Below, piece after piece: positions 54,327-62,321 of a DNA stretch of 64,000 nt. Below the pieces are notes generated by a model. The model was not told the origin of the DNA. It saw only the letters and a list, made by a program, of their open reading frames with translations, and made no database searches. A program made the translations under genes and the position numbers. The DNA comes from Sphingomonas sp. URHD0057 (GTDB taxonomy: Bacteria; Pseudomonadota; Alphaproteobacteria; Sphingomonadales; Sphingomonadaceae). The DNA is taken from NCBI RefSeq assembly GCF_000620665.1, contig NZ_JIAU01000007.1:1-64000 (forward strand). Direction: 5' to 3'. Each line of letters starts with the position of its first letter. Position 1 is the first letter of the stretch.

Positions 54327-54356
54327 TTGACCCGGGCCAATCCATTGCACTAGGAT
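54327..54356 (+). promoter_or_regulatory. Putative trp operon promoter
   Basis: TTGACC at 54327-54332 and TAGGAT at 54351-54356 with an 18-base spacer fit a sigma-70-type promoter. A start about 7 bases beyond the -10 box would fall at 54363-54366, at or just before the ATG of the leader peptide, so the leader mRNA would be nearly leaderless. Confidence 0.6.
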
Positions 54357-54365
54357 TCGATTCGC

Positions 54366-54452
54366 ATGACGAACCTGGTCGCCATCGCCGCAGCAACGAC
54401 CGCTCACCTCTGGTGCGGCGAATTCACGCATGCGGCGCGATGGCGCGACTGA
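54366..54452 (+). CDS. trpL: Putative trp leader peptide TrpL
   Basis: A 28-codon open frame (MTNLVAIAAATTAHLWCGEF, then THAARWRD) with Trp at codons 16 and 26, ending at TGA 54450-54452. No ribosome site precedes the ATG, but the promoter start would place it at the mRNA 5' end; alphaproteobacterial trpL of Sinorhizobium is also read from a leaderless start. A terminator lies 28 bases downstream of its stop and 16 bases before trpD. Two Trp codons is a weaker signal than the consecutive Trp of Rhizobium trpL. Inferred, not proven. Confidence 0.6.
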   Translation: MTNLVAIAAATTAHLWCGEFTHAARWRD

Positions 54453-54480
54453 TCGAATAGCATCCGATCATCGACTGCCC

Positions 54481-54504
54481 GCCCGCCATCCGGCGGGCTT
54501 TTTT
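54481..54504 (+). terminator. Intrinsic terminator (candidate attenuator) before trpD
   Basis: GCCCGCC (54481-54487) pairs with GGCGGGC (54492-54498) around ATCC, followed by six T residues (54499-54504). It stands between the leader peptide and trpD. A competing pairing, GATGGCG (54439-54445) with CGCCATC (54484-54490), would break the terminator's left arm, as an antiterminator should. Confidence 0.8.
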
Positions 54505-54520
54505 GTTTCCAGGTGAATTC

Positions 54521-55591
54521 ATGAGCCACATTCTGTCTTTCGCCCGCGATTCCGTCGCTGCGCCGGCACCTGCCGATCCCGCCGCGGAAGCGCCGATCAT
54601 GCGCCTTCTCGACGGCGAAAACCTCGACCGGGCCGAGGCGCGCGAGCTGTTCGCTCGAATCGTCGAGGGAAGCCTCAGCGACCCGTTGATGGCGGCCGCG
54701 TTCGTCGCGCTGCGGGTCAAGGGTGAGACTGCCGACGAACTGATCGGCGCCGCCGAGGCACTGCGCTCGGCAGCGCGCCGGTTCCCATCCCCCGCCACCC
54801 TGTTCGCCGACAGCTGCGGTACCGGCGGGGACTTTTCGGGGTCGATCAACGTCTCGACCGCCGCTGGCCTGGTCGCTGCCGCGTGCGGCCTGCCGGTCGT
54901 CAAGCACGGCAACCGCTCCTTCACCTCGCAATGCGGCTCGGCCGACGTCCTCGAAGCGCTTGGCGCAAGGCTCGATCTCAGCCCGCTCGAATCGCGCGAG
55001 ATCTTCGACCAGACCGGATTCTGCTTCCTGCTCGCTCCTTACTATCACCCCGGGATCGCCCACGCCGGGCCGGTGCGCCGGGCGCTCAAGGTGCGGACGA
55101 TCATGAATCTGCTCGGGCCTTGCCTGAACCCGGCCCAACCCAAAGTTCAGCTGCTCGGAGTCGCCGATCCCAAGCTGCTGCGGCCGATCGCCGAGACGCT
55201 GCGGGCGCTCGGGGTCGAACGGGCGCTGGTGGTCCACGGCTCGGGTCTCGACGAGATCGCGCCGCACGGCGTCACGCAGGCCGTCTCGCTCGCCGACGGC
55301 GATCTTGAGGATCTCGAAATTACGCCTGAACAGGCTGGCCTCGCCCGTCAGGCGGTGCGGCAAATCGCTGGCGGCTCGCCCGCCGACAATGCGCGGAGGC
55401 TCACGGACATCGTCGCGGGAGTCGGGGGAACGGCCGACATCTCGGTTGTCGCGCTGAATGCCGGAGCGCTGCTGATGACCGCTGGCAAGGTGGCCGACCT
55501 CAAAGACGGCGTCGGCTGCGCGATGGAGGCAATGCGCTCGCGTCGCGCACTTCGGGTTCTCGATGCTTTCGTCGAGGCGAGCCGTGGCTGA
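54521..55591 (+). CDS. trpD: Anthranilate phosphoribosyltransferase TrpD
   Basis: A 356-residue enzyme adding phosphoribose to anthranilate in tryptophan synthesis. AGGTGA lies just upstream of ATG 54521. Family motifs are FADSCGTGGDFSGSINVSTA, VVKHGNRSFTSQCGSADVLEALG and IMNLLGPCLNP. The first 27 residues (SFARDSVAAPAPADPAAEA) are an Ala/Pro-rich extension not needed for the fold. Sequence is closer in feel to enteric TrpD than to the usual alphaproteobacterial one. It overlaps trpCF. Confidence 0.93.
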   Translation: MSHILSFARDSVAAPAPADPAAEAPIMRLLDGENLDRAEARELFARIVEGSLSDPLMAAAFVALRVKGETADELIGAAEALRSAARRFPSPATLFADSCGTGGDFSGSINVSTAAGLVAAACGLPVVKHGNRSFTSQCGSADVLEALGARLDLSPLESREIFDQTGFCFLLAPYYHPGIAHAGPVRRALKVRTIMNLLGPCLNPAQPKVQLLGVADPKLLRPIAETLRALGVERALVVHGSGLDEIAPHGVTQAVSLADGDLEDLEITPEQAGLARQAVRQIAGGSPADNARRLTDIVAGVGGTADISVVALNAGALLMTAGKVADLKDGVGCAMEAMRSRRALRVLDAFVEASRG

Positions 55592-56966
55592 GTTGCCCGG
55601 AATTCTCGGCGCGATTGCCGCAGCAAAGCGCGAGGAGCTGGCCAGCCGCTATGTCGGTGTGTCGCTCGATGGCTTGCGCGCCCAGGCGCAGCCGACCGGT
55701 CAAAGCCTGATGGACGCGATCGCGCAGGATGGCGCCCGCTTCATTCTCGAGATCAAGAAGTCCTCGCCATCGGCGGGTCCGATCCGACTTCACGCCGACG
55801 CTGCAGCGCTGGCGCGCGGCTTCGCCGGCGTCGCCGATGCGCTGAGCGTGCTTTGCGATGCCCCACATTTCGGCGGTTCGCTCGAAGACCTCGCGGCAGC
55901 GCGCCGCGAATTCGACGGCCCGATCCTCGCCAAGGACTTCTTCATTGATCCGCGCCAGGTCGCGGAGGCCCGGATCGCCGGCGCGGACGCCATCCTCGTG
56001 ATGCTTTCGCTGCTCGACGATGGCGCCGCGCGCGCGATGACCGCCGAAGCGCGCCGCTTCGGCATGGACGTGTTGGTCGAGGTTCACGATGAGCTCGAGA
56101 TGCGCCGTGCGCTGGCGCTCGGTGCGCCGCTGATCGGGATCAACAATCGCGACCTCCGGGATTTCTCGGTCGACCTCTCCGCGACGGAGCGGCTGGCGCG
56201 GTTTGCGCCCGACCGTGTGCTCGTATCCGAATCCGGGATCGCGGGCCGCGCAGACGTTGAGCGGCTTGCGCCGTTGGTCGACGGCTTCCTGATCGGCTCG
56301 TCGGTGATGCGCTCCGCCGATCCGGCGCGGGCTGCGCGCGAGCTGATCTTCGGCCGCACCAAGCTGTGCGGCTTGAACCGGTCGGCGGACTTCCAGGGCG
56401 CGCGTCCAGCGACCCACATCGGCCTGGTGTTCGTTCCGGAAAGCCCGCGCGCAGTGACGCTCGGCCAGGCCCTATCGCTGGCTGGTCTTCATCCGGCACC
56501 GGTCGGCGTGTTCCGCGATGCGGCGCTGGACGACGTCGGCGCGACCGCGACCATGCTCGGTCTCGCTGCGGTCCAGCTGCACGGTGGGGAAAGCGCCGCC
56601 TACGTCCGAGCATTGGCGCGGCGCTTGCCGGCGGATTGCGAAATGTGGAAGGCGATCCACGTCGGCTCGTCGGCGCCGGATCGATTCGACGCCGCCGACC
56701 GGCTGCTGTTCGACAGTGGCCGCGGTGGGACGGGCCAAAGCTTCGACTGGTCATTGGTCCGCGATCATCCCTCGCTCGGCAGCGCGCTGATCGCGGGCGG
56801 GATCGGTCCGCATATCGCTCGCGCCGCCCAGCGCCTCGGCGCCTATGCGATCGACGTTGGCTCGTCGGTCGACGCCGCGCCTGGACGAAAGTCGCCCGAG
56901 AAGATCGCCGCCTTGTTCGACGCGCTCCGTCCCGAGTCGCGCATCAGGCTTCGCGCATGCGCCTGA
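55584..56966 (+). CDS. trpCF: Bifunctional TrpC-TrpF (IGPS/PRAI)
   Basis: A 460-residue fusion. GTG 55584 overlaps the trpD stop by eight bases. The N-half (about 1-255) is indole-3-glycerol-phosphate synthase ([47 protein letters not shown]). The C-half is phosphoribosylanthranilate isomerase ([43 protein letters not shown]). Separate trpC and trpF are usual in alphaproteobacteria; the fusion is typical of enteric bacteria. It overlaps trpB. Confidence 0.93.
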
Positions 56967-58108
56967 ACAGCCGCTTTGGACGGTACGGCGGAACCTATGT
57001 CTCCGAAATCCTGGTGCCCGCGCTCGAGCAGCTCGAGTCGGCGTTCATCGACTCAAAGGAGGACCCGGCGTTCGCCGAGGAGCTCAACGGCCTGCTCGCC
57101 AACTACGCCGGCCGGCCGACCCCTCTGACCCGCTGCCGCAACCTGCCCCGCAACATCTATCTCAAGCGCGAGGACCTGCTCCATGGCGGAGCGCACAAGA
57201 CCAACCAGGTGCTGGCGCAAGGCCTGCTCGCGAAACGCATGGGCAAGACCCGGCTGATCGCCGAGACCGGGGCTGGGCAACATGGCGTCGCGACCGCAAT
57301 GGCCGGCGCGCTGCTCGACTTCGAGACCGTCGTCTATATGGGCGCCGAGGATGTCGAGCGGCAGCAGCTCAACGTCTTCCGCATGGAGCTGATGGGTGCG
57401 GAGGTGGTGGCGGTCGAATGCGGCGCCCGCACCTTGAAGGACGCGATCAACGAAGCGCTGCGCGACTGGTCGGCGAGCTTCGAGCACACCCATTATCTGC
57501 TCGGCACCGCAGCCGGCCCACACCCATTTCCGACGATGGTTCGCGAATTCCAGCGACTCATCGGCCGCGAGGCGCGCGCGCAGATTCTCAACCAGCTCGG
57601 CCACTTGCCCGACGCCGTTGTCGCCTGCGTTGGCGGGGGGTCGAACGCGATCGGCTTGTTCGCCGACTTCCTCGACGATGACGTACGCCTGATCGGCGTC
57701 GAGGCCGCTGGCAAGGGGCTGGACGGCGACGAGCATGGCGCGACCCTGCTCCGCGGCACGCCGGGAATTCTCCATGGAGCCGAGACCTATGTGCTGCAGA
57801 ATGGCGATGGGCAGATCGCCGACACCTGGTCGGTCTCGGCCGGCCTCGACTATCCCGCGGTCGGACCCGAGCATGCCTATCTCAAGGACAGCGGCCGCGC
57901 CGAATATGTCGGCGCCACGGACTTGGAGGCACTCGCGGCGTTCAAAATGCTCGCCGAGGAGGAGGGCATAATCTGCGCGTTCGAATCCGCCCACGCACTC
58001 GCGCATGCGCTGAAGCTTGCTGAAGCGGAGCCCGACAGCGCGATCCTCGTCGGCCTGTCGGGCCGCGGCGACAAGGACGTCGCTCAAGCCCAGGCGCTGC
58101 TCGCTTGA
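56957..58108 (+). CDS. trpB: Tryptophan synthase beta chain TrpB
   Basis: A 383-residue PLP enzyme joining indole and serine. ATG 56957 lies in the 3' end of trpCF. The PLP lysine is in [30 protein letters not shown] and [10 protein letters not shown] bind the cofactor phosphate. The sequence [15 protein letters not shown] and [12 protein letters not shown] is the enteric form; typical alphaproteobacterial TrpB reads xDELNHTGAHKxNN. This supports transfer of the operon. Overlaps trpA. Confidence 0.94.
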
Positions 58109-58887
58109 GCCGCTACGCGGCAATGTTCGAGCGGCTCGGCGGCGAGGGCGCGTTCGGCGCGTTCCTGATGCTCGGCGACCCTGACCTCGCTACCAGCACT
58201 CGTCTGCTGGACGCGGTGGTCGACGGCGGCGCGGATATGGTCGAGGTCGGCATTCCATTCTCGGACCCGGTCGCCGACGGTCCGGTGATTCAGGCGGCCG
58301 CGCAGCGCGCGCTGGCAGCCGGCGTGACCGTCGGCGACTGCCTGGAGCTAATTTCCGGGTTCCGGAAACGCCACCCGGACGTGCCCGTCGGCATCCTTAC
58401 CTACGCGAATATCGTGATGGCGCGGCCTGGGTTCATGCGCGACCTCGCCGAGTCCGGTGCCGACAGCCTGCTCATCGCCGACGTTCCCGTGCTTGAGGCC
58501 GGGCACTTCACGCCCGACATGGAGCGGGCCGGGATCGCGCAGGTGCTGATCGCCGCCCCCAATACGCCCGATGCGACACTTCGCCGCATCGCGGGCTTGT
58601 CCAAGGCCTATACTTACTGCGTCAGCCGCGCGGGAATCACCGGCACGCATGCCGCGGGCCGGTTCGACAGCCGTCTCATTCAGGGACTGCGCCAGGCCGG
58701 CGCCCCCCCGCCGATCTACGGTTTCGGTATCTCCCAACCCGAACATGTGAGGGCAGCGCTGGAGGCCGGCGCGGCCGGCGTAATTTGCGGCTCGGCGATC
58801 GTGGATTCGGCTGCGCGCGGGGAAGATGTTACGCTGCTGGTACGAATCTTGAAGGCGGCGACGCGGAACGACTCGGCGCCGCAGTGA
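58105..58887 (+). CDS. trpA: Tryptophan synthase alpha chain TrpA
   Basis: A 260-residue TIM barrel that cleaves indole-3-glycerol phosphate. TTG 58105 overlaps the trpB stop (TTGA). Catalytic Glu is in [19 protein letters not shown] and Asp in LLIADVPV; phosphate loops are [11 protein letters not shown] and [10 protein letters not shown]. Last gene of the trp cluster; Ku begins 30 bases later. Confidence 0.94.
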
Positions 58888-58917: not shown

Positions 58918-59790
58918 ATGGCTGCGCGTCCCATCTGGAGGGGTCAAATCCGGCTCGCTTTGGTCTCGATTCCGGTCGAGCTCTACCCCGCGACCCGAAG
59001 CGGCGCCTCGATTCAATTCCACCAAGTGCACGAGCCTTCGGGCAAGCGCATCAAATATGAGAAGGTCGTGCCCGGCATCGGCCCGGTCGACCGTGACGAG
59101 ATCGTCAAGGGCTATGAAGTGTCCAAGGGGCACTATGTCCTGCTCGACCCCGAGGAGATCGAAAGCGTCAAGCTCGAGAGCCGCAAGACGCTCGACCTGG
59201 TCCAGTTCGTCGACGACGACGACATCGACGCGATGTATTTCGACAAGCCTTATTACGTCGTGCCGGCCGACGACTTGGCAGAAGAGGCCTATGTCGTCCT
59301 GCGCGATGCACTGAAGGCCGCGAACAAGGTCGGCGTCGGCCAGCTCGCGATGCGCGGGCAGGAATATGTCGTCGCGCTGAAGCCGTGCGGCCGCGGCATC
59401 CTGCTCGAAACACTGCGCTACGCCGACGAAGTCCACAAATCGACTGGGTTCTTCCGCGACATCGGCGAGGCTAAGCCCGATCCGGACCTGCTCGACATGG
59501 CCTCGATGCTGATCGAGCGCAAAGCCGGCGAGTTCGACCCCGCCGACTTCCACAACCGCTACGTCGATGCGCTCCACGAGCTCATCGAGAAGAAGCAGAA
59601 AGCCAAGGGCGAGAAGATCATCGAACAGCCCGAGGAAGCGCCGCCCAAGGGCTCCAACGTCATCGACCTGATGGCTGCGCTGAAAAAGAGCCTCGGCGAC
59701 GAAAAGCGCGCCAAGGCCGAGAGCAGGCCGAAGAAGGCGGCGGCGAGGAAGACTGCCGCCAAGAAAGAACCGGCACGCAAGCGAGCGTAA
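58918..59790 (+). CDS. ku: Non-homologous end-joining protein Ku
   Basis: A 290-residue bacterial Ku that binds DNA ends as a homodimer and recruits LigD. The N-terminus AARPIWRGQIRLALVSIPVELY and the core KYEKVVPGIGPVDRDEIVKGYE are diagnostic; KPYYVVPADDLAEEAYVVL and TLRYADEVHK follow. The C-terminal 50 residues are Lys/Ala-rich (KRAKAESRPKKAAARKTA), typical of Ku tails that bind DNA. It is followed 47 bases later by ligD. Confidence 0.95.
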   Translation: MAARPIWRGQIRLALVSIPVELYPATRSGASIQFHQVHEPSGKRIKYEKVVPGIGPVDRDEIVKGYEVSKGHYVLLDPEEIESVKLESRKTLDLVQFVDDDDIDAMYFDKPYYVVPADDLAEEAYVVLRDALKAANKVGVGQLAMRGQEYVVALKPCGRGILLETLRYADEVHKSTGFFRDIGEAKPDPDLLDMASMLIERKAGEFDPADFHNRYVDALHELIEKKQKAKGEKIIEQPEEAPPKGSNVIDLMAALKKSLGDEKRAKAESRPKKAAARKTAAKKEPARKRA

Positions 59791-59837
59791 TGAGTTTCGT
59801 CATTGCAAGAGTGCAAATGACGAGGAGCAGTTGAGGC

Positions 59838-62321
59838 GTGCCGACCCGCAAGCTCGACATCGCAACTTACAACGAGAAGCGCGACTTCTCGAAGACGAAG
59901 GAGCCCAAGGGCCGCAAGCTCAAGGGCAAGGGCGACAGCTTCGTCGTCCAGAAGCACGATGCCTCGCGGCTCCATTGGGACTTCCGCCTCGAGCTCGACG
60001 GCGTCCTCAAGAGCTGGGCGGTGCCCAAGGGGCCGAGCCTCGATCCGGGCGAAAACCGCCTCGCCATGCGCACCGAGGACCATCCGCTCGACTACGGCAG
60101 TTTTGAGGGCACCATTCCCAAGGGCGAATATGGCGGTGGCACGGTGATGCTGTGGGACCAGGGGCGGTGGATCCCCGACCCGCGCAAGGATCCGAGCAAG
60201 ACGATCGACGAGGGCCACCTCCACTTCACCCTCGAAGGCGACCGGATGAAGGGCGAGTGGGTGATGTTCCGCCTGAAGCCCAAGCCGGGCGAGAAGGCGC
60301 AGCCGTGGATGCTGAAGAAGGTCACCGACGATTTCGCCGACCCCGCCGATGGCGATGCGCTGGTCGACAATTGCGTGACCAGCGTCACCACCGGCCGGAC
60401 GATGGCGGAGATCGCGGTCGGCAAGGACATGTGGCGGTCCAATCGCGGCGGCCAGAAGGGCGGGCGCGCGAAGAAATCGGCCTCGAAGGCGCCGCCGCCG
60501 TTCCTCGAGCCGCAGCTCGCCACCCTGGTCGACGAGGTGCCGACCGGAAATGCGTGGCTCCACGAGATCAAATATGACGGCTATCGCCTGCTGCTCGCGG
60601 TCGGCGACGGGGTGGCCACGGCGTGGACGCGCAACGGGCTCGACTGGAGCGACAAGTTCAAGGCGCTGGTCAAGGCTGCCGCGAAGCTGCCCGCCGGCTG
60701 CCTGATCGACGGCGAGGCGGTCGCCATCGACGACGAGGGCCGGCCGAGCTTCCAGTTGCTGCAATCGACCCTCAAGGATCAGCGCGGCGCCAATCTTGCT
60801 TTCTACGCTTTCGATCTGCTGGTCGACCGTGGCGAAGACATCCGCAAGCTGCCCAACCTGGAGCGCAAGGAACGGCTCGCGGCGCTCCTTGAAGGCGTAT
60901 CGCCGCCGATCCTCTACGGGGATCACGTCGTCGGTCGCGGCGAGGACATGTTCGAGGCGGTTTGCAAGCAAGGCGGCGAAGGCATCATCTCGAAGAAAGC
61001 GGGCGCGGCCTACAGCGGCACGCGCACGCGCAACTGGCTGAAGATCAAGTGCATCCAGCGCCAGGAGTTCGTGATCGTCGGCTGGTCGGAGAGCGACAAG
61101 CGCCGTGGCTTCCGCTCACTCCTCCTCGCGTCGCGGGACGGGCGAGCGCTTACGTATGTCGGCAAGGTCGGCACCGGCTTCACCGCCGACCTCATCGAAG
61201 ACCTGATGGAGCGCATGGAGCCGCTCGCGGTCGACAAGGCCCCGGTCGAGGTCCCGCGTCCCGACCGCAAGGGGGCGCACTGGATCGCGCCCAAGCTGGT
61301 CGCCGAGATCGCCTTCGCCCAGTTCACCGGCGACGGGATCCTGCGCCACCCGAGCTTCATGGGTCTGCGCGAGGACAAGCCGGCATCGAAGGTAGTGCGC
61401 GAAGTGCCAAAGCATCTGACCAAGTCCGAGAAAAAGCCGAAGCACGCGACGGCGGACAGCTTCGGCATCGAGATCAGCAGCCCCGAGCGGATCATCTTCC
61501 CCGAGCTTGGCCTCACCAAGAAGGACCTCGCGGATTATTATGCGGCGGTCGAGCCGCTGATCATGATCGATGCGGCCGACCGCCCGATGACCATCATTCG
61601 CTTCCCGAGCGGCCGCACCGGCGAAGGATTCTTCCAGAAGCACGACAAGGGCACCTTCGGCCCGCACGTGAAGCAGATCCCGATCAAGGAGAAGGACGGC
61701 CATTTCGAGGATTATCTCTACTTCGACGACATACAGGGCCTGCTCGCGTGCGTGCAGATGGGCACGATCGAGTTCCACGGCTGGGGCAGCAAGGTCGACA
61801 GGGTCGAATATCCCGACCGCCTGGTGTTCGACCTCGACCCCGACGTCGGCCTCGACTTCGAGAAGGTGAAGGCGGCGGCGGTCCGGTTGAAGGCCTTGTT
61901 GGAAGACCTCGGGCTGAAGAGCTTCCCACTGCTGTCGGGCGGCAAGGGGATCCACGTCGTGGTGCCGCTCGACCGGTCGAAGGACTGGCCGACTGTGAAG
62001 AGCTTCGCCGACCGCTTCAGCCGCGCGATCTCAGAAGCCGAGCCGCAGACCTTCACCGCCAACATCCGCAAGGTCGAGCGCAAAGGACGCATCTTCCTCG
62101 ACTGGCTGCGCAATCAGCGAGGGGCGACCGCGGTCATGCCGTTCTCGGCGCGCGCCCGCGAAGGGGCGCCCGTCGCCGCGCCGGTCGCATGGAGCGAGCT
62201 CGGCAAATATGAGAGCGGACATCACTTCAGCATCCGCGACGCCGACCAGCTGCTGAAGCGCGCGAGCTCGAAGGTGCTTGCAGGTTGGGGCAAGGCCAAG
62301 CAAGCCTTGCCCGATGCATAA
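59838..62321 (+). CDS. ligD: Multidomain DNA ligase LigD
   Basis: An 827-residue end-joining enzyme. GTG 59838 with GAGG upstream is the start. Order is 3'-phosphoesterase (about 35-170: KHDASRLHWDFRLELDGVLK, MRTEDHPLDYGSFEGTIPKGEYGGG), ATP-dependent ligase (about 220-520: nucleophile Lys245 in HEIKYDGYRLLL), and polymerase/primase (about 545-820: FPELGLTKKDLADYY, GGKGIHVVVPLDRSKDW). This PE-LIG-POL order is as in Pseudomonas, unlike mycobacteria. Partner of Ku. Confidence 0.95.
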   Translation: MPTRKLDIATYNEKRDFSKTKEPKGRKLKGKGDSFVVQKHDASRLHWDFRLELDGVLKSWAVPKGPSLDPGENRLAMRTEDHPLDYGSFEGTIPKGEYGGGTVMLWDQGRWIPDPRKDPSKTIDEGHLHFTLEGDRMKGEWVMFRLKPKPGEKAQPWMLKKVTDDFADPADGDALVDNCVTSVTTGRTMAEIAVGKDMWRSNRGGQKGGRAKKSASKAPPPFLEPQLATLVDEVPTGNAWLHEIKYDGYRLLLAVGDGVATAWTRNGLDWSDKFKALVKAAAKLPAGCLIDGEAVAIDDEGRPSFQLLQSTLKDQRGANLAFYAFDLLVDRGEDIRKLPNLERKERLAALLEGVSPPILYGDHVVGRGEDMFEAVCKQGGEGIISKKAGAAYSGTRTRNWLKIKCIQRQEFVIVGWSESDKRRGFRSLLLASRDGRALTYVGKVGTGFTADLIEDLMERMEPLAVDKAPVEVPRPDRKGAHWIAPKLVAEIAFAQFTGDGILRHPSFMGLREDKPASKVVREVPKHLTKSEKKPKHATADSFGIEISSPERIIFPELGLTKKDLADYYAAVEPLIMIDAADRPMTIIRFPSGRTGEGFFQKHDKGTFGPHVKQIPIKEKDGHFEDYLYFDDIQGLLACVQMGTIEFHGWGSKVDRVEYPDRLVFDLDPDVGLDFEKVKAAAVRLKALLEDLGLKSFPLLSGGKGIHVVVPLDRSKDWPTVKSFADRFSRAISEAEPQTFTANIRKVERKGRIFLDWLRNQRGATAVMPFSARAREGAPVAAPVAWSELGKYESGHHFSIRDADQLLKRASSKVLAGWGKAKQALPDA

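Follow-up and report, generated by a model that had tools for sequence, protein, structure and literature searches.

A predicted leaderless tryptophan attenuator before trpD in Sphingomonas sp. URHD0057 and its counterparts in related genomes

How is a trp operon controlled when it begins with trpD and the genome appears to lack trpE? This question is raised by a locus in the first 64,000 nucleotides of contig NZ_JIAU01000007.1 of Sphingomonas sp. URHD0057, a stretch which we call the window at its full length. An earlier note on this DNA had placed a leaderless Trp attenuator directly before trpD. This claim is strongly supported by the spacing, Trp codons, arm and terminator that are conserved in relatives, and positions 54327-54504 very probably constitute a ribosome-mediated, leaderless tryptophan attenuator for trpD-trpCF-trpB-trpA. 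Our confidence in the attenuator excludes the salvage reading of the operon, which is graded separately below. The element and the genes behind it comprise the following parts.

54327-54332, forward strand: -35 hexamer TTGACC (pattern scan; TTGAC spacing kept in relatives)
54351-54356, forward strand: -10 hexamer TAGGAT (pattern scan)
54366-54452, forward strand: leader ORF MTNLVAIAAATTAHLWCGEFTHAARWRD, 28 codons and TGA (54450-54452), read from the sequence
54411-54416, forward strand: putative sensor codons 16-17, TGG TGC (tandem Trp at the same place in most relatives)
54432-54455, forward strand: arm GCGGCGCGATGGCGCGAC and stop region, 5′ side of the predicted antiterminator (window fold; 13-nt arm conserved)
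54465-54486, forward strand: 3′ side of the predicted antiterminator (window fold), taking six of the seven bases of the terminator left arm
54481-54504, forward strand: intrinsic terminator, 54481-54487 paired with 54492-54498, six T to 54504 (scan, folding, conservation)
54521-55591, forward strand: trpD, anthranilate phosphoribosyltransferase (TIGR01245, 375.8 bits)
55563-56966, forward strand: trpC-trpF fusion (NF006945, 460.1 bits)
56954-58108, forward strand: trpB, start approximate (TIGR00263, 580.5 bits)
58105-58887, forward strand: trpA (TIGR00262, 249 bits)

The matches of all four genes exceed the NCBIfam cut-offs. On the 3′ side of trpA, at 58918-62321, lie ORFs which we take, by resemblance, to be Ku and DNA ligase D (LigD). 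ORFs of the same presumed identity follow trpA in the same order in G005, G015, G023 and G068.

The promoter hexamers and the leader ATG stand where the earlier note had put them, and the same promoter was returned by the scan. Direct reading of the sequence also confirms the 28-codon leader with Trp codons (TGG) at positions 16 and 26, as well as the strong terminator with six T just before trpD. The stem-loop GCCCGCC-AUCC-GGCGGGC (54481-54498) lies upstream of the trpD ATG at 54521, and its helix is kept across the 26 leaders aligned below. Taken alone, the promoter and terminator matches are weak evidence against chance, because one promoter was found in the region against 0.2 expected in shuffles and one terminator against 0.9; it is conservation that beats chance. 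The Rfam family RF00513 (Trp_leader) gives 20.2 bits, below its gathering cut-off of 41, and the 17 matches listed up to E = 10 include none to the T-box family.

TrpD was searched for in 120 genomes, the window genome included, of which 112 gave a match, and in named contigs. In G010, G041 and G057 the match is in two pieces. For model building, the stretches 5′ of trpD were read in 31 genomes; 26 loci, along with an additional copy elsewhere in the window genome, gave Trp-rich leaders good enough for use. The covariance model R1, built from 26 leaders and run against the genomes of 120 relatives, has matches at E <= 0.1 in 66 of the 120, false matches included. By position, compiled by hand, a leader lies directly 5′ of trpD and on the same strand in 51 of 71 same-genus genomes (24 with leaders in the model, 27 with leaders outside it). 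In the relatives the usual peptide has the form ...WW...AARWR(D or GW)*, followed by a GC-rich terminator.

The extracted leaders form 47 rows, 46 of them distinct; 46 rows stand before trpD and one before a TauE-like gene of the window genome. The rows are related sequences and not independent trials. L002 comes from the same contig as L084 and was dropped from counts over 46 leaders, being kept in the 47 rows used for spacing and folding; L088 and L002 were excluded from alignment A1. The motif TTGAC lies 35-40 nt 5′ of the leader start in 46 of the 47 rows, the start having been chosen among in-frame candidates for this count in several leaders. The last row, L239, has a distance of 44 nt, or 35 nt with an upstream in-frame ATG. 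Eight leaders with a single possible start (window, L095, L099, L105, L107, L108, L109 and L112) show a spacing of 35-39 nt. This promoter spacing suggests that the transcript starts on the leader ATG (54366-54368) or a few bases from it. A start far upstream of the ATG is unlikely, since the distance from TTGAC to the leader is fixed.

The earlier note had named the loss of Trp codons in relatives as its refutation, and such loss did not occur: clustered Trp codons are kept in 44 of 46 leaders, the exceptions being the window leader and L088. In the window leader the second Trp of the tandem is lost (TGG TGC, W16 and C17) whereas the relatives have tandem Trp. Of the 46 leaders, 37 carry the 13-nt arm GCGGCGCGATGGC without any change. 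Furthermore, the Arg of the ARW motif is encoded by CGA in 41 of 41 cases, a codon used for only 15 of 218 Arg residues in seven window genes. The exact arm and the rare codon argue for a constraint that acts on the nucleic acid and not only on the peptide.

The arrangement is common in the genus and not universal. Twenty of the 71 same-genus genomes have no R1 match directly before trpD, and ten of these carry a leader before the trpE operon instead (G001, G006, G018, G035, G052, G055 and G058 by R1; G002, G013 and G044 seen by eye). In G007, a leader precedes aroF-trpE and a degenerate copy stands before trpD (L088, with a single HWRR and a weak T-run). In the remaining nine no leader was found before trpD, or trpD itself is missing or partial; their trpE upstream stretches were partly read. 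Beyond the genus, Sphingosinicella sp. LHD-64 has such a leader before trpD (L003), and so do three genomes of family f2 (G073, G091 and G107) among the 20 that were examined. In 17 of these 20 outside genomes the trpD match lies no more than about 200 nt from the end of a trpG-like ORF. Outside the genus R1 gave six matches at E <= 0.1, and the four that were read (L210-L213) are not leaders. A scan of 20 trpE upstream stretches outside the genus returned no plausible attenuator and two spurious peptides far upstream.

The folding test assumed a ribosome footprint of 9 nt and an RNA that ends ahead of the right arm of the terminator. When a ribosome occupies codon 16, the window RNA left free is predicted to pair 54432-54455 with 54465-54486. 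Across the 47 rows, the mean probability that the terminator left arm is taken by upstream RNA is 0.77 with the ribosome at the sensor versus 0.17 with the ribosome at the stop; with shuffled upstream RNA, which is likewise GC-rich and often pre-empts the arm, the mean is 0.57. Pre-emption at the sensor exceeds that at the stop in all 47 rows (46 distinct; Wilcoxon 2e-9), including L237, whose terminator was mis-parsed and which is near zero in both states. In 44 rows the value lies above the row's own shuffle mean; L093, L237 and L241 fall below. For the rows L002, L083, L084, L087 and L110, folding used the hairpin in the adjacent GCCCGCC register. For the window leader, the probabilities are 0.86 at the sensor and 0.19 at the stop, and 3 of 40 shuffles pre-empt the left arm equally well.

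The earlier note had drawn the antiterminator as a 7-bp helix between 54439-54445 and 54484-54490. The perfect complement does exist in the window and its GGCG/CGCC core is kept, but the rest is not conserved: 76.6% of cells pair across 26 aligned leaders, and these show no covariation beyond shuffles. The terminator helix pairs in 99.5% of cells across the 26 leaders, with one pair changed on both sides. The longer, imperfect helix of 54432-54455 with 54465-54486 is predicted to fit the antiterminator better. Trp codon 26 (54441-54443) falls inside its 5′ side; a ribosome stalled there would cover the arm and favour termination, so that only codon 16 could serve as the sensor in the window leader. 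When the whole window RNA is free to fold, the terminator form wins, and antitermination would therefore have to be kinetic.

We infer the start site, the stall and the Trp response of the leader in the following scheme. Transcription would start at or next to the leader ATG, and the ribosome would begin on the 5′ end of the RNA. When charged tRNA-Trp is scarce, the ribosome would stall at codon 16 and leave the arm 54432-54455 free to pair with 54465-54486; the terminator could then not form and the operon would be read. When Trp is plentiful, a ribosome at the stop would cover the arm, the terminator would form and transcription would end before trpD. The response of the window leader to Trp may be weak, because one Trp of the sensor tandem is lost.

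This loss is also the starting point for an alternative to which we give a small share of belief: the window copy could be a decaying attenuator that, with a single sensor codon remaining, now restrains trpD mostly at a constant level. TGG TGC in place of the relatives' tandem speaks for it, as does a second leader with an intact WW elsewhere in the genome, before the TauE-like gene. However, the promoter, start, arm, terminator and all four genes are intact in the window, and L088 of G007 illustrates what real decay looks like, with its single HWRR and weak T-run. Another conceivable role, which we regard as very improbable, is that the terminated leader RNA or the peptide acts mainly in trans and that control in cis is secondary. 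Such action would resemble that of rnTrpL/peTrpL in Sinorhizobium meliloti, where rnTrpL is reported to begin with the trpL ATG and to lower the stability of trpDC mRNA in trans (PMC7298713). Against this, the leader stands in cis before trpD and its constraint fits a switch between terminator and antiterminator. A last alternative is an ordinary upstream terminator with a small ORF that arose by chance. The region indeed holds no more terminators than shuffled sequence does, but 51 of 71 same-genus genomes repeat the arrangement at a constant promoter spacing and with clustered Trp codons, which already contradicts this alternative; its probability is negligible. By all the sequence evidence, the leader appears to be a real ribosome-mediated Trp attenuator in an unusual place.

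Which substrate would the attenuated operon use? The window genome is 99.85% complete in 11 contigs, and its search for TrpE gave no match to TIGR00565, PF00425 or the TrpE of a relative. The PF00425 search found a match in 14 of 14 control genomes. The window genome (G000) is without any PF00425 protein, so PabB (p-aminobenzoate) seems to be missing besides TrpE. Among same-genus genomes, 36 of 71 gave a TrpE match (E <= 3.3e-117). Nine genomes that lack it consist of a single contig and are 98-100% complete (G015, G022, G023, G024, G025, G030, G039, G057 and G069). When the TrpE label is mapped onto a TrpD tree with 31 rows, it has to change seven times, and at least two of these changes are forced by well-supported branches; TrpE was therefore probably lost repeatedly in the genus.

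Kynureninase (KynU) is present in the window genome (285.4 bits, cut-off 246.4). At a threshold of at least 199 bits it occurs in 29 of 35 TrpE-less versus 4 of 36 TrpE-bearing genomes (Fisher 6e-10, genomes treated as independent), weak matches in the TrpE-bearing G003, G027 (fragment) and G045 being scored absent. Six TrpE-less genomes of the genus are also without KynU. For the 53 genomes with a completeness of 90% or more and a contamination of 5% or less, the counts are 20 of 25 versus 1 of 28. Since KynU and TrpE occur together in most genomes outside the genus, KynU is probably an old gene that was retained where TrpE was lost. Outside the genus, G073 (99% complete) has KynU and is absent from the PF00425-bearing genomes. 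Neighbours of KynU in most loci read are ORFs which we presume, by resemblance, to be dcd, dnaB or rnr; in G054 a divergent KynU lies next to leader-trpD, and in G049 KynU adjoins leader-tauE.

The window genome therefore has trpD, C, F, B and A and kynU without trpE, as in Chlamydia-like kynurenine salvage. Because no TrpE was found, we lean slightly towards an operon that turns anthranilate, probably from kynureninase, into Trp. We infer this salvage reading from gene content and co-occurrence. KynU could instead serve Trp breakdown, since TDO is present in the window genome (and in 67 of 71 same-genus genomes in all). A role in an NAD route is not favoured, as 3-HAO was found in none of the 71 same-genus genomes searched; the same search also gave nothing in its 14 control genomes, and five order-level genomes pass the cut-off.

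Copies of the leader occur at other genes. In the window genome, the second leader MTHLNAIAASSTFRLWWRGATLAARWRD precedes a TauE-like gene (PF01925, 1.7e-10), and leader and TauE-like gene are also paired in G038, G041 and G064. Close TauE homologs (at least 233 bits) are found in 19 of 35 TrpE-less versus 2 of 36 TrpE-bearing genomes (Fisher 5e-6, genomes treated as independent), weak matches below 21 bits in G023, G062, G066 and G069 being scored absent. An upstream scan of 20 TauE loci gave four with a leader, one after trpA and 15 without a leader; in G054 tauE directly follows trpA. In G049 (L216/L188), a trpA-like remnant was seen by eye between the Trp leader and tauE, and it looks as if an attenuated trp operon had lost its trp genes and kept the transporter.

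The same type of leader precedes aroF-trpE-trpG. A further R1 match lies upstream of trpE elsewhere in 16 of the 51 genomes with a leader before trpD, and aroF stands between leader and trpE wherever this was read (L174, L200-L203 and three more loci). Reading of 26 extra same-genus loci placed five leaders before TauE-like genes, three before TonB receptors, one before aroF-trpE (L174), one before aroA (L197) and one before a FadL-like gene (L190), together with three that have Tyr codons. L174 was rejected as a separate DAHP-synthase target, as TrpE follows; it is the aroF-trpE operon of G004. L197 (E = 0.09) is possibly a Trp leader before aroA. The other loci were five tRNA regions (L178, L180, L181, L191 and L194) and seven without an accepted leader (L176, L177, L182 with a WDW peptide, L187, L195, L196 and L198).

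Some of these loci deserve description of their own. The Trp leaders before TonB-dependent receptors (L179, L183 and L184) belong to G022, G031 and G036, all TrpE-less; the receptor was scanned with Pfam in L179, and L183 and L184 are alike by eye. L190 (G052:C1:2420750-2420872) has the conserved arm with ACCWRC in place of the Trp tandem, before a FadL-like outer membrane protein, and may have a changed specificity. Short leaders with Tyr codons and a terminator occur in the window genome (L113, G000:C4:196440-196521, minus strand) and in three relatives (L175, L189 and L199). Their peptides contain, by eye, VYYYP, IYAYG, AAYAAPMY and SYHYP, and they precede phenylalanine-4-hydroxylase-like genes (by a Pfam scan for L113, by resemblance to the eye for the rest). 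These four represent a possible Tyr attenuator.

As a tentative picture, which we hold somewhat short of an even chance, the Trp leaders could define a salvage regulon in this sphingomonad genus, from which trpE would have disappeared several times. Copies of one leaderless attenuator would then govern trpD-CF-B-A, for which kynureninase would provide the anthranilate. The regulon would also include a TauE-like transporter, and in some species a TonB receptor, for the uptake of kynurenine, anthranilate or Trp.

The consulted part of a survey of marine trp genes describes split operons and leaves leader peptides unmentioned (PMC2395257). In the titles and abstracts found by our literature search, whose scope did not extend to the main surveys, no trp attenuator before trpD or TauE appeared. 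The class of mechanism is known; the placement and the regulon appear to be new. If the readings given here are true, a split trp operon carries an attenuator at a new position in the pathway, and this attenuator has survived the loss of the first step. Many of these bacteria would then make Trp only from kynurenine or anthranilate, and regulation alone would give candidate functions to TauE-like and TonB-receptor genes.

In E. coli, trpL is found before trpE, is translated from a ribosome-binding site and works in addition to a repressor. That system shares with the scheme proposed here the principle that ribosome stalling at Trp codons picks antiterminator or terminator. Unlike it, the leader described here stands before trpD and scores below the RF00513 cut-off.

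Another parallel is trpL-trpE(G) of S. meliloti, which is likewise alphaproteobacterial, with Trp codons and a terminator before a trp gene. It is also leaderless, its RNA starting with the trpL ATG according to the part of the source consulted (PMC7298713), a property suggested here by promoter spacing. The same part describes only trpE(G) as attenuated, with the leader RNA acting on trpDC in trans (PMC7298713), whereas here trpD has its own predicted cis attenuator and no TrpE was found in the genome. The 14-residue peTrpL is half the length of the leader peptide here. Compared with this account of S. meliloti, the placement before trpD is unusual, as the earlier note had supposed, but within the genus it is common (51 of 71). 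For the gene set, the nearest parallel is Chlamydia pecorum, which in the part of the report consulted has trpD, C, F, B and A without trpE/G, plus kynU, and for which anthranilate is proposed to come from kynurenine through KynU (PMC3932018). Both systems combine trp genes without trpE with kynU; in that account of C. pecorum, however, trpR is part of the operon and kynurenine comes from the host cell, whereas here, in a member of the order of Sphingosinicella, control by attenuation is predicted.
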